A DNA stretch of 64,000 nucleotides from Lachnospiraceae bacterium. Its GTDB lineage: Bacteria > Bacillota > Clostridia > Lachnospirales > Lachnospiraceae. Under the pieces are notes generated by a model that did no database searches, was not told the origin of the DNA, and saw only the letters and a list, made by a program, of their open reading frames with translations. This document shows, in pieces, positions 1,412-12,907 of this stretch (positions are counted from its first letter, which is position 1; each line of letters starts with the position of its first letter). The stretch lies in assembly GCA_016283775.1 (NCBI GenBank), contig JAEENL010000114.1, forward strand, positions 1 through 64,000. The letters are read 5' to 3'. The translations under genes were made by a program, and so were the position numbers.

Positions 1412-1957
1412 TCAGTCCTCTCCCACAAGGTGCACGGTCTTGTAATCATGATGTGTTGCGGGAAGGAATCTGTTCAACACATCCGATGTAGGTATCTTAA
1501 GGCTCGAAGTACACACGCAGGGATGGCATCCGATATGGTCGAACTTCAGCACATCTTCATCGATCAGGAGCTGCACCATGTTTTCCTTATCGTTCATTAC
1601 TCCCATGATGCTCGCGGAACCGGGCTCAATGTCAAGGTATTTCAGCATATCTTCCGGTTCGGCAAAAGAAAGCCTTGAGGAATTTATCTGCGCAGACAGT
1701 TCCTTTGTTTTGAACTTCTTTTCGCCCGGCATGAGGAGCAGGTAAAATGCAGTTTTCTGGCGATTGCAGAGAAACAGATTTTTGCAGATCATGATATCAA
1801 GCACCTTTGCGACCTCATTGCATGCTTCCATGTTTGGCGTTGCCTCGTGATCCACTCTTTTATATTCTATCCCGAGACTGTCGAGAAGCTCATATGTCCT
1901 GACTTCCCTCGGCAGACGCCCTGTTTTGTCCTTCGGACTTCCTTCAAACACTTCCAT
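1412..1957 (-). CDS. YbaK/ProX-type prolyl-tRNA deacylase domain protein
   Basis: MEVFEGSPKDKTGRLPREVRTYELLDSLGIEYKRVDHEATPNMEACNEVAKVLDIMICKNLFLCNRQKTAFYLLLM... matches the ProX pattern. Confidence 0.8.
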   Translation of the reverse strand: MEVFEGSPKDKTGRLPREVRTYELLDSLGIEYKRVDHEATPNMEACNEVAKVLDIMICKNLFLCNRQKTAFYLLLMPGEKKFKTKELSAQINSSRLSFAEPEDMLKYLDIEPGSASIMGVMNDKENMVQLLIDEDVLKFDHIGCHPCVCTSSLKIPTSDVLNRFLPATHHDYKTVHLVGED

Positions 1958-1976
1958 TTTTGTACCTTTCGATCGT

Positions 1977-2657
1977 TTATTCAAACGCAGCCTCAAGAAG
2001 CGTTGCGTCTTTAAGCGTACAGTAAAGAGCTCCTCCATCGAGGTATGTGGTGTATTCTCCCATCACCACTATCTCCATCCCCTCTTCAGGGTAATCATCG
2101 GGGTAGCTGCAGCCTTCGAGCGTAAATTCCATGCCCTGTGCGCAGCATGCGGTCGCATCCTTTATAATGCAATAGTAATAGTCTATTCCCGTATAATCAT
2201 CATGATACACGGAAAATATCCCTTTCATTTTTATGATCTTTCCCATGTATCGGTCAGGGTCGCTCATCATGCCGAAGACCTCGGAATAGACCATAGTTGC
2301 GGAAAGTTCCGTAAGATCCACATCGACGTCTCGTGGTTCTGACGGATCTTCGGCCGGAGCCTCGGGTGCGTCGGCCGGAGTGATCTCAGGAGTTTCAACA
2401 GGTGTGCTCTCAGGAGTTACCGCAGGTGTGATCTCCGGTGTTTCTGTTGGAGTTTCGGCAGGCTTTTCGGTCGGTTTTTCGGTCGGTGTGACGGCCTCCG
2501 TGGCCTTTTTTCCCGATGCCTCTATCTGAGCGTTTATAACATCATTTACGGCAGATGTTCCACTGCCCTGTCTTTTTGCGGTTCCGCCCTCCTTACCGCA
2601 TCCTGCAAGTATCAGCAGAACCAGAACAAGCATTGCGATCCTTAATACCTTTTTCAT
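1977..2657 (-). CDS. Lipoprotein with T/P/E-rich linker and CCAQG-containing C-terminal domain, last gene of zinc operon
   Basis: Lipobox LLILAGCG; start overlaps znuB stop (2654-2657, ATGA); C-terminal IIKDATACCAQGMEF. Confidence 0.75.
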   Translation of the reverse strand: MKKVLRIAMLVLVLLILAGCGKEGGTAKRQGSGTSAVNDVINAQIEASGKKATEAVTPTEKPTEKPAETPTETPEITPAVTPESTPVETPEITPADAPEAPAEDPSEPRDVDVDLTELSATMVYSEVFGMMSDPDRYMGKIIKMKGIFSVYHDDYTGIDYYYCIIKDATACCAQGMEFTLEGCSYPDDYPEEGMEIVVMGEYTTYLDGGALYCTLKDATLLEAAFE

Positions 2658-3496
2658 GCACGTGCCCCCATCACTTTTTCCGCAACGCAGCAGATCGCAA
2701 ACATCGCAACGTCTGCGGCAACTATTGTTGAGCCTACGGGCGTTCCCGCAAGTATGGATATCAAAAGGCCTGCCAGGGCGCATATCACTGAGATTATCGC
2801 AGAGCATACGGTAACGCTCTTAAAATTTTTGTAAAGCTTCATCGATGATAATGCAGGGAAAATGACAAGCGCCGAGATAAGGAGCGATCCCACGAGATTC
2901 ATCGCAAGTACTATTATCACGGCAATAACGGTAGCAATAAGGAGGTTATATGCATTTGTCCTTATTCCTGCGGCCTTGGAAAAGGTCTCGTCAAATGTTA
3001 TCGCAAAAATCTTGTTGTAAAACAGCACAAATATCAGCAGCACCATCACAGAAAGCGCGATGCAGAGCCACACTTCCTGCTTTGAGAGCGTAAGGATCGA
3101 GGTCGAGCCGAAAAGCGTGGAGCAGACGTCTCCGGAAAGATTTGACGATGTGGAAAAAATATTCATCAAAAGATAGCCGAATGCCAGCGAAGCAACGGAT
3201 ATCATCGCTATCGCTGCATCGCCCTTTATCTTTGTGTTCTGGCCTGTCCTCAAGAGCAGTATGGCGCTTCCTATCGTTATCGGAAGTACAAGGAGCATAT
3301 TGTTTGAAACGTTTACAACGGTCGCAATGGCCATAGCACCGAAAGCCACATGTGAGAGTCCGTCCCCGATGAAGGAAAAACGCTTAAGTACGAGCGTCAC
3401 TCCGAGAAGCGATGAGCACAGTGCGATCAACACGCCGACTATGACAGCATATCTTACGAACGGATATTGAAGATATAAAAACAGCTTGTCTATCAT
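2654..3496 (-). CDS. znuB: Metal (zinc) ABC transporter permease
   Basis: ABC-3 family pattern (LLGVTLVLKRFSFIGDGLSHVAFGAMA); in operon with ATPase, SBP and Fur-family regulator. Confidence 0.85.
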   Translation of the reverse strand: MIDKLFLYLQYPFVRYAVIVGVLIALCSSLLGVTLVLKRFSFIGDGLSHVAFGAMAIATVVNVSNNMLLVLPITIGSAILLLRTGQNTKIKGDAAIAMISVASLAFGYLLMNIFSTSSNLSGDVCSTLFGSTSILTLSKQEVWLCIALSVMVLLIFVLFYNKIFAITFDETFSKAAGIRTNAYNLLIATVIAVIIVLAMNLVGSLLISALVIFPALSSMKLYKNFKSVTVCSAIISVICALAGLLISILAGTPVGSTIVAADVAMFAICCVAEKVMGARA

Positions 3497-4200
3497 TTAT
3501 CGTTATCCTCCGTTATAAGGATCGACTTACCGATCTCGCTCTTTAAAAACTGTTCCTTGGTCCCGAAGAACAGATCATTTCCCACATGCAGTATATGGCT
3601 TGCGTAGCGCAGAGCAGCGGAAACGTCATGGGAGATCATTATTATCGTTATCCCCTCTTCGTTCAGTTCTTTTATCAGCCTGTACATTCCTATCGTGGCA
3701 TTCGGATCCAGCCCCGAAACGGGTTCGTCAAGCAAAAGTATCTTTCTTGTTGCACAAAGCGCTCTCGCAAGCAGCACCCGCTGCTGCTGTCCTCCGGAGA
3801 GCTCACGGTAACAGCGTCCCGCAAGGTCTGATATGCCCATGCGCTCCATATTTTTTTGGGCGATCTCTTTTTCCTCTTTGTTGTAAAACGGTCTTAAACC
3901 ACATCTGGACTGGCATCCGGACAAAACTATCTCCTGTACGGAGGCAGGAAAATCCCTCTGTACCACGGTCTGCTGAGGAAGGTAACCAACCTCGTTGGCT
4001 TTGAGTCCTTCTCCCCGGATGACCTCCCCGCTCATGGGTGCTTTGAGCTCAAGCAGCGTCTTCATAAGAGTCGTTTTTCCCGAGCCGTTCTCTCCCACTA
4101 TGCAGAGATAATCTCCCGCTTCAACTTTGAAATTCAGGTTTTCCGCTATGGTGCGGGATTCATAGCCCAGCGCCAGGTCCTTTACGGTTATAAGTGCCAT
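3493..4200 (-). CDS. znuC: Metal (zinc) ABC transporter ATP-binding protein
   Basis: Walker A GENGSGKTT, signature LSGGQQQRVLLARAL, Walker B ILLLDEP. Confidence 0.85.
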   Translation of the reverse strand: MALITVKDLALGYESRTIAENLNFKVEAGDYLCIVGENGSGKTTLMKTLLELKAPMSGEVIRGEGLKANEVGYLPQQTVVQRDFPASVQEIVLSGCQSRCGLRPFYNKEEKEIAQKNMERMGISDLAGRCYRELSGGQQQRVLLARALCATRKILLLDEPVSGLDPNATIGMYRLIKELNEEGITIIMISHDVSAALRYASHILHVGNDLFFGTKEQFLKSEIGKSILITEDNDK

Positions 4201-4225
4201 GTTGCCTCCACTTAAGTCAAAATGT

Positions 4226-5242
4226 CTATTTCAGTGCTTCCTTAAGTACTTCGAGATTGTTCCTCATTATCGAAAGATAATCCGTGCCCTTTGCGATGTC
4301 CTTTGATGTCGTGGACTGCATGGAATCAAGAGTCAGTATCTTCTGTCCGTGGGAAGCGGTGTTGTTCACTATTGTCTCGGCGATCCTGTGATCTTTTCCT
4401 TCGATGGTCATTACTGCATTAAGGCCAAGCTCGTCAACCTTTTTTGAAAGAAAAGCGATCGTCTCAAAGCTTGCCTCAGTCTCGGCAGAGCATCCTACAA
4501 AAGCTGCGTAATAAGTGAGTCCGTAATCATCCGTGAGATATCTGAAGGGGAAACGGTCTCCGAAAAGCACGGTCTTCTTTGCTGCATTTTCGACAGCGTC
4601 TTTGTATTCCTTGTCAAGAGCATCGAGACTTTTTACATATTTCTCGGTCTGTTTTCTGTAGTGATCGGCATTTGCCTTATCCAGACCACACAAAGCTTCC
4701 GAAATACTGTCTACCAGTATCGAAGCGTTTTTGAGGGACAGCCATACATGCTCATCGTATTCCGTTTCCTCGTCATGATCGTGGTCATCTTCGTCATGGT
4801 CATCGTCATGGTCATCGTCGCCGTGATCGTGGTCATGCTCCTCTTCCTGCATGCCCTCGACGACTTCCTCCTCTTTTACTCTGTCACCAAGAGTTTCAAG
4901 AAGGTTTATCACCACCATATCTTTATTCACTGATTCTTTAAGCGCATCCTCAACCCATTCGTCGGACTCACCTCCGACATATATGAAAAGATCGCAGTTT
5001 GCGACCTTCATGATATCATCCGCGGTGGGCTGGAAGCTGTGAAGATCGACTCCTTTGTCGAGAAGCAGCGTAACATCCGCTTTTGCGGGGTTGTCGCCTA
5101 AAATGTTCATTACCCAGTCATACTCGGGAGCGATCGTCGCAACGATACTTAAGCCATCCTTTTTTGCTGCCTTTCCGCATCCCGTAAGGCCTGCGGCAGT
5201 CACAAGCACAAGTGCCAAAAATATATAAATGATCTTTTTCAT
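4226..5242 (-). CDS. znuA: Zinc ABC transporter substrate-binding lipoprotein with His/Asp-rich loop
   Basis: Lipobox LTGCG; EEEHDHDHGDDDHDDDHDEDDHDHDEE loop followed by DEHVWLSLKNA. Confidence 0.88.
   Translation of the reverse strand: MKKIIYIFLALVLVTAAGLTGCGKAAKKDGLSIVATIAPEYDWVMNILGDNPAKADVTLLLDKGVDLHSFQPTADDIMKVANCDLFIYVGGESDEWVEDALKESVNKDMVVINLLETLGDRVKEEEVVEGMQEEEHDHDHGDDDHDDDHDEDDHDHDEETEYDEHVWLSLKNASILVDSISEALCGLDKANADHYRKQTEKYVKSLDALDKEYKDAVENAAKKTVLFGDRFPFRYLTDDYGLTYYAAFVGCSAETEASFETIAFLSKKVDELGLNAVMTIEGKDHRIAETIVNNTASHGQKILTLDSMQSTTSKDIAKGTDYLSIMRNNLEVLKEALK
4756..4842 (-). repeat. Low-complexity His/Asp-coding stretch within znuA
   Basis: Repeated GTCATC/GTGATC units encoding HDHDHGDDDHDDDHDEDDHDHD. 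Confidence 0.8.
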
Positions 5243-5318
5243 GATTAACCTCCGTTTGTTTCAGGGTTCACCGTCTGTTAAGCGCCCTGTGTTGTCAGTA
5301 TGGGAAAACAGAGGTCTT

Positions 5319-5630
5319 TCAATCGTTCAGCCTGATCTTTTCAGTCACGGGCGTGTCCGAAACGATGAGAAAACGGCGGAACACAGGGATAGCCGCAAAA
5401 AAGGCCGCCATGAGGACCGCCACTGCTTTAAGTACCGAGCCGTTAAAAACATGCTTTACGGTCATGGCGCACTGATGCAGCATCTCGCAGACCGGGCAGT
5501 CATGATCCTCACACTCATGAGTTGCTTCGAGCCCCGTAAACACAAGTGACACGGCAAGAAACACCAAAACGGCGCATACCATGAGACACATCGGTATCGT
5601 TTTTTCATTCGTCATTTTGTTGTATGTCAT
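5319..5630 (-). CDS. Small membrane protein with Cys/His-rich loop, in zinc operon
   Basis: MTYNKMTNEKTIPMCLMVCAVLVFLAVSLVFTGLEATHECEDHDCPVCEMLHQC..., two predicted TM segments; start at 5630 or 5615. Confidence 0.65.
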   Translation of the reverse strand: MTYNKMTNEKTIPMCLMVCAVLVFLAVSLVFTGLEATHECEDHDCPVCEMLHQCAMTVKHVFNGSVLKAVAVLMAAFFAAIPVFRRFLIVSDTPVTEKIRLND

Positions 5631-5638
5631 GCCCCTCA

Positions 5639-6064
5639 TCAAGTCCGTTCCTGTCCGCATTCTTCGCATATTCCGTAAAACACTGTCCTTACGGGATCCA
5701 TGGTAAATCCGTGTTCCTTAAACAGATGTTCCTGTATCATCTTTATCTCATCACAATGGAGATGTATCAGTTTTCCGCATTTCTCACATTTGCAGTGATA
5801 GCACACTTCTTTCTCGTCGTGACTGCTCTTTCCGACATATTCAAAGCAGGCGGAACTGCTTCCGTCTATGACATATTTGTTGACAACGCCTTCGTCCACA
5901 AGGTCCTCAAGGCGGCGGTAGATGGTCGCCTGTCCTATCGGATCCCCCTGCTCTTTAAAATACTGCCACACGTCGCCTGCGGTAACATGTACGCCGTGCT
6001 TCGTCTCAAGATATTTTAAAAGCGTATCCTTCTGCTTTGTGTTGTATTTCGGTCTGGAATTCAT
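5639..6064 (-). CDS. zur: Fur-family regulator, probably zinc-responsive (Zur)
   Basis: Fur fold, GQATIYRRLEDLVDEG, CxxC pairs (CEKCGK; CEECGQ); first gene of znu operon. Confidence 0.8.
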   Translation of the reverse strand: MNSRPKYNTKQKDTLLKYLETKHGVHVTAGDVWQYFKEQGDPIGQATIYRRLEDLVDEGVVNKYVIDGSSSACFEYVGKSSHDEKEVCYHCKCEKCGKLIHLHCDEIKMIQEHLFKEHGFTMDPVRTVFYGICEECGQERT

Positions 6065-6081
6065 ACAATCCTCCAATTTGA

Positions 6082-6102
6082 AATTGAGAATCGTTCCCAA
6101 TT
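6082..6102. promoter_or_regulatory. Putative Fur/Zur box
   Basis: AATTGAGAATCGTTCCCAATT dyad located 18 bp upstream of the Fur-family gene start. Confidence 0.65.
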
Positions 6103-6125
6103 ATATTCGAATTTCCTGTTTTGTC

Positions 6126-6169
6126 AAGAAAAAAACACCGGAAAAAGTTTTTTATGCTTTCTCCGATGT
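6126..6169 (-). terminator. Rho-independent terminator of the metH-ygiQ transcription unit
   Basis: On the minus strand ACATCGGAGAAAG / CTTTTTCCGGTGT stem (two G-U pairs) followed by TTTTTTT. Confidence 0.8.
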
Positions 6170-6198
6170 GAAATATACATATATATGCAGCTTGCGCC

Positions 6199-8115
6199 TT
6201 ATCTCGGCCTTCTCCCTTTGTGGGTGATGCCGCGTGCCTCTCTGTACTTGTCGGTGGTCTTGCAATTGTGCTTTTCCCCGCTGCTGTGTGCTATCTTTCT
6301 CGGAGGGATCAGGCAGTGCTTGTCAAAACCGATCAGGTCCTCACGGCCTTCTTTTATCAGTGCTTCTTTTACAAGATCGTAATTTGCCGGATTCCTGTAC
6401 TGGATAAGAGCTCGCTGCATAGCTTTTTCATGCGGGCTTTTGGGCACATACACAGGTTTCATGGTGCGAGGGTCGAGGCCCGTATAATACATACACGTCG
6501 AGATCGTAGACGGTGTGGGATAGAAATCCTGCACCTGTTCCGGACAGTATCCGAGATCCCTTATATATTCCGCGAGCGCTATCGCATCCTTCAATGTGGA
6601 ACCCGGATGCGACGACATGAGATACGGTATCACATATTGGTTGTGATCGAGCGTGCCGTTTTTTATAAGTCCTCCGTTGATCCTTGCAAATTTGTCCACA
6701 AACTCCTCATATACGGCATTTTCCGGCTTTCCCATAAGTGAAAGGACGTTGTCGGAAATATGCTCCGGAGCCACGCGAAGCTGACCGGAAATGTGATATT
6801 TGCAAAGTTCCCTGAAATAGTCGTCTTTTTTGTCCGCAAGAAGATAGTCAAATCTGATGCCGGACCGCACAAACACTTTCTTTACGCCGGGAAGCGCGCG
6901 AAGCTTCCGTAAAAGTGACAGGTAATCCGAGTGATCCACCTTGAGGTTAGGACAGGGCTTCGGCCACAGACACTGTCTGTTCTGGCAAGCGCCGTGCTTT
7001 AACTGCTTGTCACAGGCAGGATGCCTGAAATCCGCGGTGGGACCTCCGACATCGTTGATGTTTCCTTTGAAGTCCTTTTCTTTTGTGAATTCTTCCGCTT
7101 CCTTTAAGATAGACTCATGACTTCTCGACTGGATTATCCTGCCCTGATGGAACGTGAGCGCGCAGAACGAGCAGCCGCCGAAGCAGCCCCGGTTTGAGGT
7201 TATGGAATATTTTATCTCGGAAAGAGCGGGGACACCGCCCTCCTTTTCATATACAGGGTGATACGACCTCATGTAGGGAAGCGCATAAACGTCGTCCATC
7301 TCCTGTGTGGTGAGTGGAAATGCGGGCGGATTCTGCACCACATATTCATAGTCCTTGTATTTTTCAACGAGTGTTTTTGCCGAAAAAGGATCGGTATTTA
7401 TGTACTGCTTGTAAAAGCTTTCGGCGAAGGTCTTTTTTTCACTGCAGATCTCTTCATACGACGGGAGTATCAGAGGGTCGACAAGGGAATCCAGGTCTCT
7501 CGCCTTGTAGACGGTGCCTCTTATGAAAGTCAGGTCCTTCACGTCTATCCCGGATGCGAGCGCGTCCGCGATCTCAACTATCTGGTGTTCTCCCATTCCG
7601 TAGATCAGAAGATCCGCAGCGGAGTCGAGCAAAATGGAGCGTTTCACCTTGTCAGACCAGTAATCATAGTGGGCAAGACGCCTGAGTGACGCCTCTATGC
7701 CGCCAATGATGACCGGCGAATCTTTGAAAGTCTTTCTGATGAGGTTTCCATAGACCACATCGCATCTGTCGGGGCGACGTCCCATCACACCGCCGGGAGT
7801 ATAGTAATCATAGGTCCTGTGCTTTTTTGCGACGGTATAGTGATCCACCATGGAGTCGATGTTTCCGCCGCTTATGAGAAAGCCGAGACGAGGTTTTCCG
7901 AGTATCGCGACAGACTTTTCGTCCTTCCAGTCGGGCTGTGCTATGATCCCAACCTTGTATCCGTGAGCCTCGAGCACGCGGCTTATGATCGCGGGTCCGA
8001 ATGAGGAATGATCCACATATGCGTCGCCGATCACATAGACAAAGTCACACTGATCCCAGCCGCGTTCTCTCATATCCTGTTTGCTGATCGGAAGAAAACC
8101 ATTCATATCACTCAC
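6199..8115 (-). CDS. YgiQ family radical SAM protein
   Basis: Radical SAM CxxxCxxC ([13 protein letters not shown]) and full-length YgiQ pattern. Confidence 0.9.
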
Positions 8116-10708: not shown

Positions 10709-10739
10709 AATGTTTACATACAAAATGACGAGGTATCAT

Positions 10740-11357
10740 ATGAACTGGAATGCCTTTATTGTGATCATCTACATCTTCATAGGTCTTGGCGCCGCAGCCG
10801 AAGCGGTGTTCTTTTTCCTCGCAAGAAAAAAAGCGCTCGAGATACGTGACTCCGCCCTTGCCGGAAGCCTTACAAGCAAAGCCACGGGTGAGTCGCTGTT
10901 CAAAAAGGTATCCTACAGATCCCGTCAGGATTTCCTTGACGCGTCCAGCCTTTTGAAGCTTCTCTATTCCATATATTCAAATATTTCAGCCATTTTCCCG
11001 CTTCTCGGTATCCTCGGCACCGTCGTTTCTCTCATAAACATGACCGACATGACATCCGCCGCCGAAAGCTTTATGTCCGCACTCGACACCACTCTCTGGG
11101 GCCTTGTCTGCGGTATCCTTTCAAAAATGGCCGATTCCTGGCTTTCTCCTCACTATGAGACTGCGCTCGACGAAGCGGACCTCATAATCCACAACGAGGA
11201 TTGGGTAGCTCCGGAATCCTTCACCGAGGAAGACCAGGCACTTTCGGAAATGAGTAACGGCGCGTCCGCAAAGCCTGCCGTGGACTACAGCCACATCGAT
11301 GTGGATCCCCCGAAGCCCGAAGAGATCAAATCCAAACGCCCCGATGATATCGCATAA
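10740..11357 (+). CDS. MotA/TolQ/ExbB proton channel-like membrane protein
   Basis: FPLLGILGTVVSLINM and ALDTTLWGLVCGILSKM match ExbB/TolQ TM signatures. Confidence 0.75.
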   Translation: MNWNAFIVIIYIFIGLGAAAEAVFFFLARKKALEIRDSALAGSLTSKATGESLFKKVSYRSRQDFLDASSLLKLLYSIYSNISAIFPLLGILGTVVSLINMTDMTSAAESFMSALDTTLWGLVCGILSKMADSWLSPHYETALDEADLIIHNEDWVAPESFTEEDQALSEMSNGASAKPAVDYSHIDVDPPKPEEIKSKRPDDIA

Positions 11358-11402
11358 AGAGCACCGCCTTTTTAATGATCATTGTTTTCAGAAGCGAACG
11401 AT

Positions 11403-12215
11403 ATGAGACACAGAAAACGCTCAAACATAATAATCGAGCTCACTCCCCTGCTTGATGTCATAATGATCCTGATCTTCATCATCATGACAAACAACAGCAA
11501 CAAGGTCATCGAAGCCGAAGCCGCGACAGACCGCGCGAAAACAAATGCCGCAAAAGCCGCCAAGGAGTATGAGGCCATGATCTCGGAAAAAGATCTGGAA
11601 TACTCTTCCGCTCTTGAAGAGCTCAACTCAGAGCTTGAAAGCGTACGCGTTTCCGCGGAGGAAACGGAAGCCGCCAAAGATGCGGAGATCGAGAAGCTGA
11701 CAGAAGACCTGGCGATAGCGGAAGCAAGGCTCGATCTTACGGAGAATCTCAGAGAAGTTGTAAATCAGAATGCAGACAAGATATCAGGATATGACTCACT
11801 GATCAAGGTTGTGAAAGTATTCAACATCAATCTGAGATTCCTGATAGAACAGGATGACTACTTTATAGAGGAACTCAGATACAATTACTCCGGAGATACG
11901 GTAACAGTCAACGAAAAGCGTTCCATCACCATCCTTCACCAATACAACAATCCTGAAGCAAAAAAGGAGAACAACAAAACCTGGGAAAGCGAAAAGAATA
12001 ATCTCTCATACAATCTGAACCGGTGTTTGGATGATTTCATAAAGACCCAGGTCCCGGGCGATGACGGCTCAGCCTTATATATCGTGTTTTCAACTGAGGA
12101 AACGATCGTAGAAACATATAATGCCCTGACCGACAGGATCAAGGAACTTATCAACTCTGATAAATACAGGGATTACAACATAAATCTTGTTTTACCCAAC
12201 AAAAAACAGAACTAA
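11403..12215 (+). CDS. ExbD/TolR-like single-TM protein with long coiled coil
   Basis: RKRSNIIIELTPLLDVIMILIFIIM matches the ExbD/TolR N-terminal TM with conserved Asp; long Ala/Glu coiled-coil region follows. Confidence 0.7.
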   Translation: MRHRKRSNIIIELTPLLDVIMILIFIIMTNNSNKVIEAEAATDRAKTNAAKAAKEYEAMISEKDLEYSSALEELNSELESVRVSAEETEAAKDAEIEKLTEDLAIAEARLDLTENLREVVNQNADKISGYDSLIKVVKVFNINLRFLIEQDDYFIEELRYNYSGDTVTVNEKRSITILHQYNNPEAKKENNKTWESEKNNLSYNLNRCLDDFIKTQVPGDDGSALYIVFSTEETIVETYNALTDRIKELINSDKYRDYNINLVLPNKKQN

Positions 12216-12235
12216 AACACATGGAGGAACCCCAA

Positions 12236-12835
12236 ATGAGACAAACACCACCCCCGCCGGCACCCGTAAACGGACAGCAGCCGCCCAGAACACCCGAAGA
12301 GCGAAAAAGACTTAAGAAAGAGGAACGCATGCGCCACCGTGACAAGAGACGCGCCGGCAGATGGAAAAGAGTTGCCTTTTCACTCATCATAATCCTCATG
12401 CTCCTCGTCATTATCATGCTTCTTTCAGTGCTCGTCGGCTTTGATCCGTTCGGAATAGGCTATGGCAAGGACGGCGGAGGAGTTAAAAACATCAAAGAAG
12501 CCGTTGATATCCTTACCGGAAATGAGGAGGATCCTGCTCCGACTTCCACTCCCGTTCCCACAGAGCCTGCAGCCACATCCACTCCTGCGCCCGCAGAAGA
12601 AGGTGAAAAGACTATAGTCATCAGCATCGAAGGCACAAAGATCTACTATGGCGACATCCCCTGCACGGATGTCAGTGAGCTCAAAGATAACATCATCAAT
12701 GAATATACGATCAATGGCGTTAAAAAGTTTGAAGTCAGCTATACGACCGCTATCGCTTCAAAATATGATGAAGTAAAGGAAGTACTGGACGGACTTCAGG
12801 AAACTCTTGGCATAGAATTCAGCCACACACGCTAG
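12236..12835 (+). CDS. Single-TM protein with Pro-rich N-terminus and ExbD/TolR-like extracytoplasmic C-terminal domain
   Basis: Start MRQTPPPP (or 12221); C-terminal TIVISIEGTKIYYGDIPCTDVSELKDNIINEYTINGVKKFEVSYTTAIASKYDEVKEVLDGLQETLGIEF resembles the ExbD/TolR periplasmic fold pattern. Confidence 0.6.
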   Translation: MRQTPPPPAPVNGQQPPRTPEERKRLKKEERMRHRDKRRAGRWKRVAFSLIIILMLLVIIMLLSVLVGFDPFGIGYGKDGGGVKNIKEAVDILTGNEEDPAPTSTPVPTEPAATSTPAPAEEGEKTIVISIEGTKIYYGDIPCTDVSELKDNIINEYTINGVKKFEVSYTTAIASKYDEVKEVLDGLQETLGIEFSHTR

Positions 12836-12869: not shown

Positions 12870-12907
12870 AAAAAACACAGGCGCAGCTTGTCACGCCTGT
12901 GTTTTTT
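12870..12907. terminator. Bidirectional rho-independent terminator between convergent genes
   Basis: AAAAAACACAGGCG ... CGCCTGTGTTTTTT. Confidence 0.9.

Follow-up and report, generated by a model that had tools for sequence, protein, structure and literature searches.

Three adjacent genes, here called A, B and C, form a cassette in the window, i.e. the whole stretch of 64,000 nucleotides that was analysed (Table 1). The three reading frames, and the motifs that the original prediction had read in them, were all found in place. The cassette is flanked upstream by a divergent methionine-synthase-like gene and downstream by a convergent gene for a MerR-type regulator, both named by sequence reading. 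Gene A has a second in-frame ATG at 10710; the ATG at 10740 is preceded by GAGG at good spacing. The inverted repeat found past gene C is likely, from its sequence, to act as a bidirectional terminator for the cassette and the convergent gene. It is missing from the list of the inverted-repeat scan, as its loop exceeds the loop limit of the scan.

Table 1. Features of the A-B-C cassette and of its 3' flank
Feature	Position	Strand	Description
Gene A	10740..11357	+	205 aa; wheel subunit of the MotA/ExbB/TolQ family with three predicted transmembrane (TM) helices
A, TM2-TM3 core, residues 86-130	10995..11129	+	FPLLGILGT...ALDTTLWG...K; conservation over 74 relatives
Gene B	11403..12215	+	270 aa; ExbD/TolR-type axle subunit, long helical rod, C-terminal domain
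B, continuous helix, residues 14-123	11442..11771	+	TM plus rod, ~110 residues; AF2 pLDDT mostly >95
B, Asp18 codon	11454..11456	+	putative ion-binding residue; invariant in 73/73 aligned relatives
B, C-terminal alpha/beta domain, residues 153-263	11859..12191	+	order bbb-a-b-a-b; AF2, modest confidence
Gene C	12221..12835	+	204 aa; one TM helix devoid of acids, then a flexible linker and an ExbD/TolR-like domain
C, ExbD/TolR-like domain, residues 132-203	12614..12829	+	order bbb-a-b-a-b; AF2 pLDDT >90; Foldseek
Inverted repeat	12870..12907	.	14 bp, perfect, AAAAAACACAGGCG / CGCCTGTGTTTTTT; 10-base loop, A/T tracts; direct sequence reading

The window hosts a divergent member of the family. 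Its A protein lacks an N-terminal Asp present in 92% of the family, and its C domain lacks an Asp present in 84%. Because of this divergence, a profile scan of contigs with a single window protein gave nothing; the successful scan used a family alignment headed by G108, whose sequence is more central.

The A protein

A belongs to the wheel family, scoring 31.1 bits against the Pfam model MotA_ExbB (PF01618, cut-off 22.9). The ExbB/TolQ signatures originally noticed in it are FPLLGILGTVVSLINM (residues 86-101) and ALDTTLWGLVCGILSKM (residues 114-130). The score against the MotA equivalog model is 15.8 bits (cut-off 340). MotA is the nearest match of the A profile in the PDB (E 3.8e-8), followed by ExbB (1e-3) and TolQ (0.26). 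Members of the family are about 170-200 aa long, feature a 3-TM pattern by hydropathy, and lack the cytoplasmic domain of MotA. Thr94, Thr118 and Gly121 are invariant in the core of the 74 relatives, and Lys129 is conserved in 99% of them. By motif alignment, Thr94 and Thr118 are equivalent to the ion-path threonines of the PF01618 family. In the alignment, the TM3 glutamate of ExbB is missing from A, which in this respect is MotA-like. In a tree of the core, built on few columns, A proteins stand apart from both the ExbB/TolQ and the MotA branches, each well supported; since the alignment is short, the unity of the A proteins in the tree is not settled.

The B protein

B consists of a basic stretch, the ExbD/TolR TM motif IELTPLLDVIMILIFIIM, which includes Asp18, an Ala/Glu-rich helix and an alpha/beta domain. 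The ExbD model PF02472 gives 24.5 bits (E 3e-5) in a protein search, just below the cut-off of 25.4; in a six-frame search the region scores 25.0 bits, and 25.6 when taken with its neighbours. The same model matches 50 of 73 B relatives at E<0.1. Invariant residues are T14, L16, L17, D18 and I22. The single, Asp-bearing TM segment matches the TM segment of ExbD in hhalign comparisons (94%, E 1.5e-7), and the original reading of B, an ExbD/TolR TM motif with a conserved Asp followed by a long Ala/Glu coiled coil, is borne out as regards the motif, the Asp and the Ala/Glu-rich helix. Across the family the helix would span from ~3 to 26 nm if straight (median ~8.5 nm), a rough estimate made from lengths.

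The outer domain of B is less easily placed. No ExbD match was given by Foldseek for the B model, and hhalign comparison with the ExbD domain yielded 38% or 1.6%, depending on the set-up. As the hhalign match is not reproducible and Foldseek gave no ExbD match, homology of this domain to ExbD is not claimed. In the AF2 models, the outer domains of B and C have an identical predicted order of strands and helices. OmpA-like domains were not found in B by Pfam.

The C protein

C features a Pro-rich, basic cytoplasmic N-terminus and one TM segment, after which a stretch rich in Gly and a Thr/Pro linker lead to a C-terminal domain. The four top Foldseek matches of the C model in the PDB are ExbD 8pek, ExbD 2pfu, TolR 5by4 and ExbD:TonB 8p9r (probability 0.96-1.0, E 0.014-0.09). 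E-values are modest probably because linker and helix make up much of the query. The C tail also matches the ExbD periplasmic domain in hhalign comparisons (81-87%, E ~1e-5), reversed and column-shuffled controls being at or below ~4%; the reference consisted of 29 ExbD proteins from the other classes of the phylum and from E. coli. Judging from the predicted fold and from the profiles, C is a carrier of an ExbD-type periplasmic domain, and the original description of the third protein (Pro-rich N-terminus, one TM, ExbD/TolR-like domain) stands.

The TM segment of C is purely hydrophobic and, unlike that of B, poorly conserved. All 85 C proteins are free of acidic residues in the TM core; three have a D at the outer end of the TM. 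Pfam matches of C below cut-off (VirB8, DUF4834, SNARE), and profile matches to TatA and other chains, which cover its N-terminus and TM segment, were judged to be due to chance.

Conservation of the three-gene order

A profile of A alone was run against 84,980 species genomes, and 383 stretches encoding relatives were found. The best 80 of these 383, picked without use of B and C, were examined along with 11 loci from the window's taxon. In the resulting set of 91, B follows A in all (full in 90, cut by a contig end in one), and C adjoins B in 85. L111 and L128 have C in the next frame or a little downstream; in L072 and L124 the contig ends before C; in L092, C is found ~5.6 kb further on; in L070 it is a solo gene, unlinked, elsewhere in the same genome. 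Every genome of this set (best 80 of 383 plus 11) for which there is sufficient sequence has C. The loci are related, and effective sequences at 62% identity are ~25 for A, 50 for B and 55 for C. A and B overlap by 4 bases in 47 of the 90 loci with full B, which suggests translational coupling.

The trio is carried by relatives from the window's genus, from two further families of its order and from three additional genomes of the class. As the gene order recurs in other Clostridia, and core residues are invariant, the cassette is more than a chance association. The original prediction stood or fell with a match of A to MotA/ExbB, with a B TM segment akin to that of ExbD, and with conserved co-occurrence of the three genes. 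Each was checked: A matches both MotA and ExbB, B matches ExbD as reported above, and the genes co-occur across the 91 loci (best 80 of 383 plus 11).

Lengths of B and C are not correlated (r 0.01), and a fixed end-to-end contact between the two proteins is therefore without support from length. Two tandem C genes are found behind one A-B pair in G403 (L046 8382-9203), evidence that a C gene can be duplicated without B. Two genomes of the window's genus, G003 and G006, host a second, diverged cassette (L056 7151-11056 and L057 1455-5427, respectively). The DNA separating B from C in L092, a Lachnospiraceae MAG, encodes by sequence reading a histidine kinase, a CheB/PAS-type protein and an Hpt-like protein (1683-7129).

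Distribution and cell envelope of the hosts

Among the named loci (best 80 of 383) the cassette was found only in Clostridia. Named carriers are Ruminococcus albus, R. flavefaciens, Vallitalea, Petrocella, Acidaminobacter hydrogenoformans and Anaerotalea alkaliphila; further carriers are various MAGs of Lachnospiraceae and Oscillospiraceae. Clear cassettes are found in 4 of 393 sampled species of the class (~1%) and in 1 of 399 of the phylum sample, the latter being the window's genome. In the genus of G833 (R. flavefaciens), 43 of 80 genomes carry the cassette. One contig labelled Alistipes senegalensis (L127) has a typical Ruminococcus cassette whose downstream genes are those also found in L080 and other loci; it was probably binned into the wrong MAG.

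In R. albus, R. flavefaciens and Anaerotalea, the A gene of the cassette is the only gene of the MotA/ExbB family, and hence is not a flagellar stator there. The window's genome has, apart from the cassette, two more MotA-family genes of normal length (G000:C4:42204-42554 and C22:9666-10010). Genuine ExbD genes of the phylum sample are all outside the window's class, within which B of the window is the sole ExbD match.

Neither Omp85 (PF01103) nor TonB_C (PF03544) was found in nine carrier genomes, controls being positive, which argues that the cassette does not serve an outer membrane. Both are missing from the whole genome of the window, in support of the early view that the host is a probable monoderm; the lack of outer-membrane genes near the cassette, also noticed early, agrees with the finding of none of the outer-membrane markers.

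A putative ion-driven motor

The proposed relation to the class of MotA/ExbB and ExbD motors is supported by the PF01618, MotA and ExbB matches of A and by the TM match of B. By sequence, the cassette is a conserved three-gene relative of ExbBD/TolQR motors in single-membraned gut and rumen bacteria. It seems fairly probable that it encodes an ion-driven motor of the 5:2 kind (A5:B2), with C as a dedicated partner, operating in a single-membraned bacterium. Wheel and axle are roles assigned to A and B by family homology; stoichiometry, ion, rotation, the position of C and an action on wall or surface are inferred. Rotation is inferred even for known family members (PMC9389320).

A wheel of five A proteins would sit in the cytoplasmic membrane, with two B helices, both bearing the putative ion-binding Asp18, as its axle. 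Ions flowing at the A-B interface would turn one against the other, and the long helix of B may carry force several nanometres outward into the wall zone. C would be anchored beside the motor. Its persistence even when unlinked makes it probably a part of the machine, and its helix, unconserved and devoid of a core acid, suggests a position beside the wheel, peripheral rather than in the pore. Since the C domain is ExbD/TolR-like, it would probably dock, on its flexible linker, to the outer domain of B or to peptidoglycan; the ExbD domain has been reported to bind peptidoglycan transiently (PMC10771500). C may fill a place comparable to that of TonB/TolA, or of a peptidoglycan anchor, and the machine would act on the cell wall or on an extracellular structure. 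Some observations speak against this reading: B taken alone scores just below the ExbD cut-off, sequence comparison and Foldseek do not convincingly make its outer domain an ExbD domain, A lacks the TM3 glutamate of ExbB, no load gene is constantly linked, and the lengths of B and C lend no support to a fixed contact.

The stator function had originally been suggested to be split over two single-TM subunits, a view that is only partly supported. B keeps the Asp helix and has also its own C-terminal domain, of the same predicted order; C thus resembles a second ExbD-type protein, one that either lost the ion-binding helix or never possessed it, rather than half of a divided ExbD. More tentatively, and with some doubt, it can be proposed that divergence of an ExbD-type gene gave rise to two partners, both obligatory: a rod with the Asp, converting ion flow to rotation, and an Asp-less binder of wall or load. 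The two might share one pore as an asymmetric axle with a single charge. The cassette would then represent a monoderm-specific class of rotary motors, energising an extracellular process across the thick Gram-positive wall.

Comparison with known systems

ExbBD/TolQR motors are normally known from double-membraned bacteria. They are regarded as a Gram-negative property; here an ExbD-type partner, along with a third conserved protein, is found in hosts without outer-membrane markers. The cassette shares with Ton (ExbB-ExbD-TonB) a three-TM wheel, an Asp-bearing single-TM axle, and a third single-TM protein with a linker and a small C-terminal domain, which in C folds as that of ExbD. It differs from Ton because the nine carrier genomes lack outer-membrane markers and TonB_C, the C domain is ExbD-like and not TonB-like, B has a long helical rod, and A lacks the TM3 glutamate of ExbB and scores closer to MotA. 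Gene order (wheel, axle, third single-TM protein) is as in TolQ-TolR-TolA, and the C domain also matches TolR 5by4; in contrast to Tol-Pal, from which the cassette is set apart on the basis of Omp85, carriers lack Omp85, and no TolA-like C-terminal domain was recognised.

MotAB stators are made of a 4-TM MotA with a large cytoplasmic domain and of a MotB with an OmpA-like domain. The core of A is nearest to MotA by profile, but A is a 3-TM protein without the cytoplasmic domain, B has no OmpA-like domain, and the cassette is present in genomes without other MotA; it does not qualify as a stator. Non-flagellar pairs of a heterogeneous kind are described in a 2025 survey of MotAB relatives, with nothing like this third gene in the passages searched (PMC12505986). 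According to a 2022 review, the way in which relatives of ExbB might function in thick-walled Gram-positives, in the absence of ExbD, is untested (PMC9389320). No description of the cassette was found in the open-access literature, subscription papers and preprints being outside the search.

Alternative readings

The axle might be asymmetric, with one B and one C helix in the A5 ring, a single Asp per axle, and pairing via the similar outer domains. ExbD domains dimerise (PMC10771500), the C domain is ExbD/TolR-like and shares with that of B the predicted order of elements, and genes are found in 1:1 order with strict co-occurrence of B and C (best 80 of 383 plus 11 loci). AglR-AglQ-AglS, involved in Myxococcus gliding, is an open precedent, as one wheel protein has two MotB/TolR-like partners (PMC9389320); both Agl partners, however, keep the TM Asp, while in the cassette only B does, and Myxococcus is diderm. 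This arrangement is held to be unlikely. The C TM, unconserved and purely hydrophobic, would be unusual for a pore-lining axle, lengths of the C linker and of the B rod do not covary, and C exceeds B in number in G403 (two C per B) and in G003 and G006, where the second cassette is followed by a second C-type gene.

The same parts could make a gated ion channel or an envelope sensor that generates no force. No load partner is linked to the cassette, in one genome (L092) B and C are separated by sensor genes, and non-flagellar homologues are described as functionally heterogeneous in the 2025 survey (PMC12505986). Yet a plain channel would not need the long rigid rod that the Asp-bearing subunit has, and well-characterised family members transduce force, which makes this reading quite improbable.

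A vestigial Ton or flagellar stator remnant, devoid of function, would account for the patchy distribution and for hosts lacking outer-membrane markers; Ton genes of Clostridia have been noted, and called in passing likely non-functional, in a 2025 survey of force transducers (PMC12204202). Against a remnant, which is considered very improbable, core residues stay the same from one order to another although peripheral parts differ, the order of the three genes is kept in nearly every full locus (best 80 of 383 plus 11), R. albus and R. flavefaciens have no MotA/ExbB-family gene other than A, and A falls outside both the ExbB/TolQ and the MotA branches of the tree (few columns). A defence motor of the Zorya type is scarcely credible: ZorA-ZorB is likewise a pair of a non-flagellar, MotA-like wheel and a MotB-like, single-TM partner, patchily distributed, but ZorC/D are lacking, C has no Zorya counterpart, PADLOC gave no Zorya match for any of the three proteins (its one match, to LmuB over a coiled coil at E 0.06, is spurious), no effector genes adjoin the cassette, and its neighbours are lineage-conserved chromosomal genes such as aro or ilv rather than defence islands.

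If the cassette does encode a working motor, monoderms would use ion-driven mechanical work outside the membrane beyond flagella, and the natural B/C pair would allow asking whether a 5:2 motor needs both axle charges. Cultured carriers include R. albus and R. flavefaciens.

Neighbouring genes and candidate loads

Clustering of neighbours in search of a load gene revealed only lineage-specific housekeeping genes, none constant; chromosomal neighbours conserved within lineages include aro or ilv genes. Dockerins, being encoded by 80/80 genomes of the genus of G833, are uninformative for co-occurrence. In the same genus, the type II/IV secretion ATPase PF00437 is found in 41/43 carriers vs 29/37 non-carriers (Fisher p 0.04, a value that ignores two tests and kinship). 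The association is too weak and confounded, and was rejected as evidence; it is a weak lead towards type IV pili.

The second cassette of G003 and G006 is part of a run of six same-strand genes, encoding in order an AIM24 protein (PF01987, E 1e-38), A, B, C, a further C-type protein with a Thr/Pro linker, and a secreted protein of ~340 aa. The latter is a candidate load or partner.
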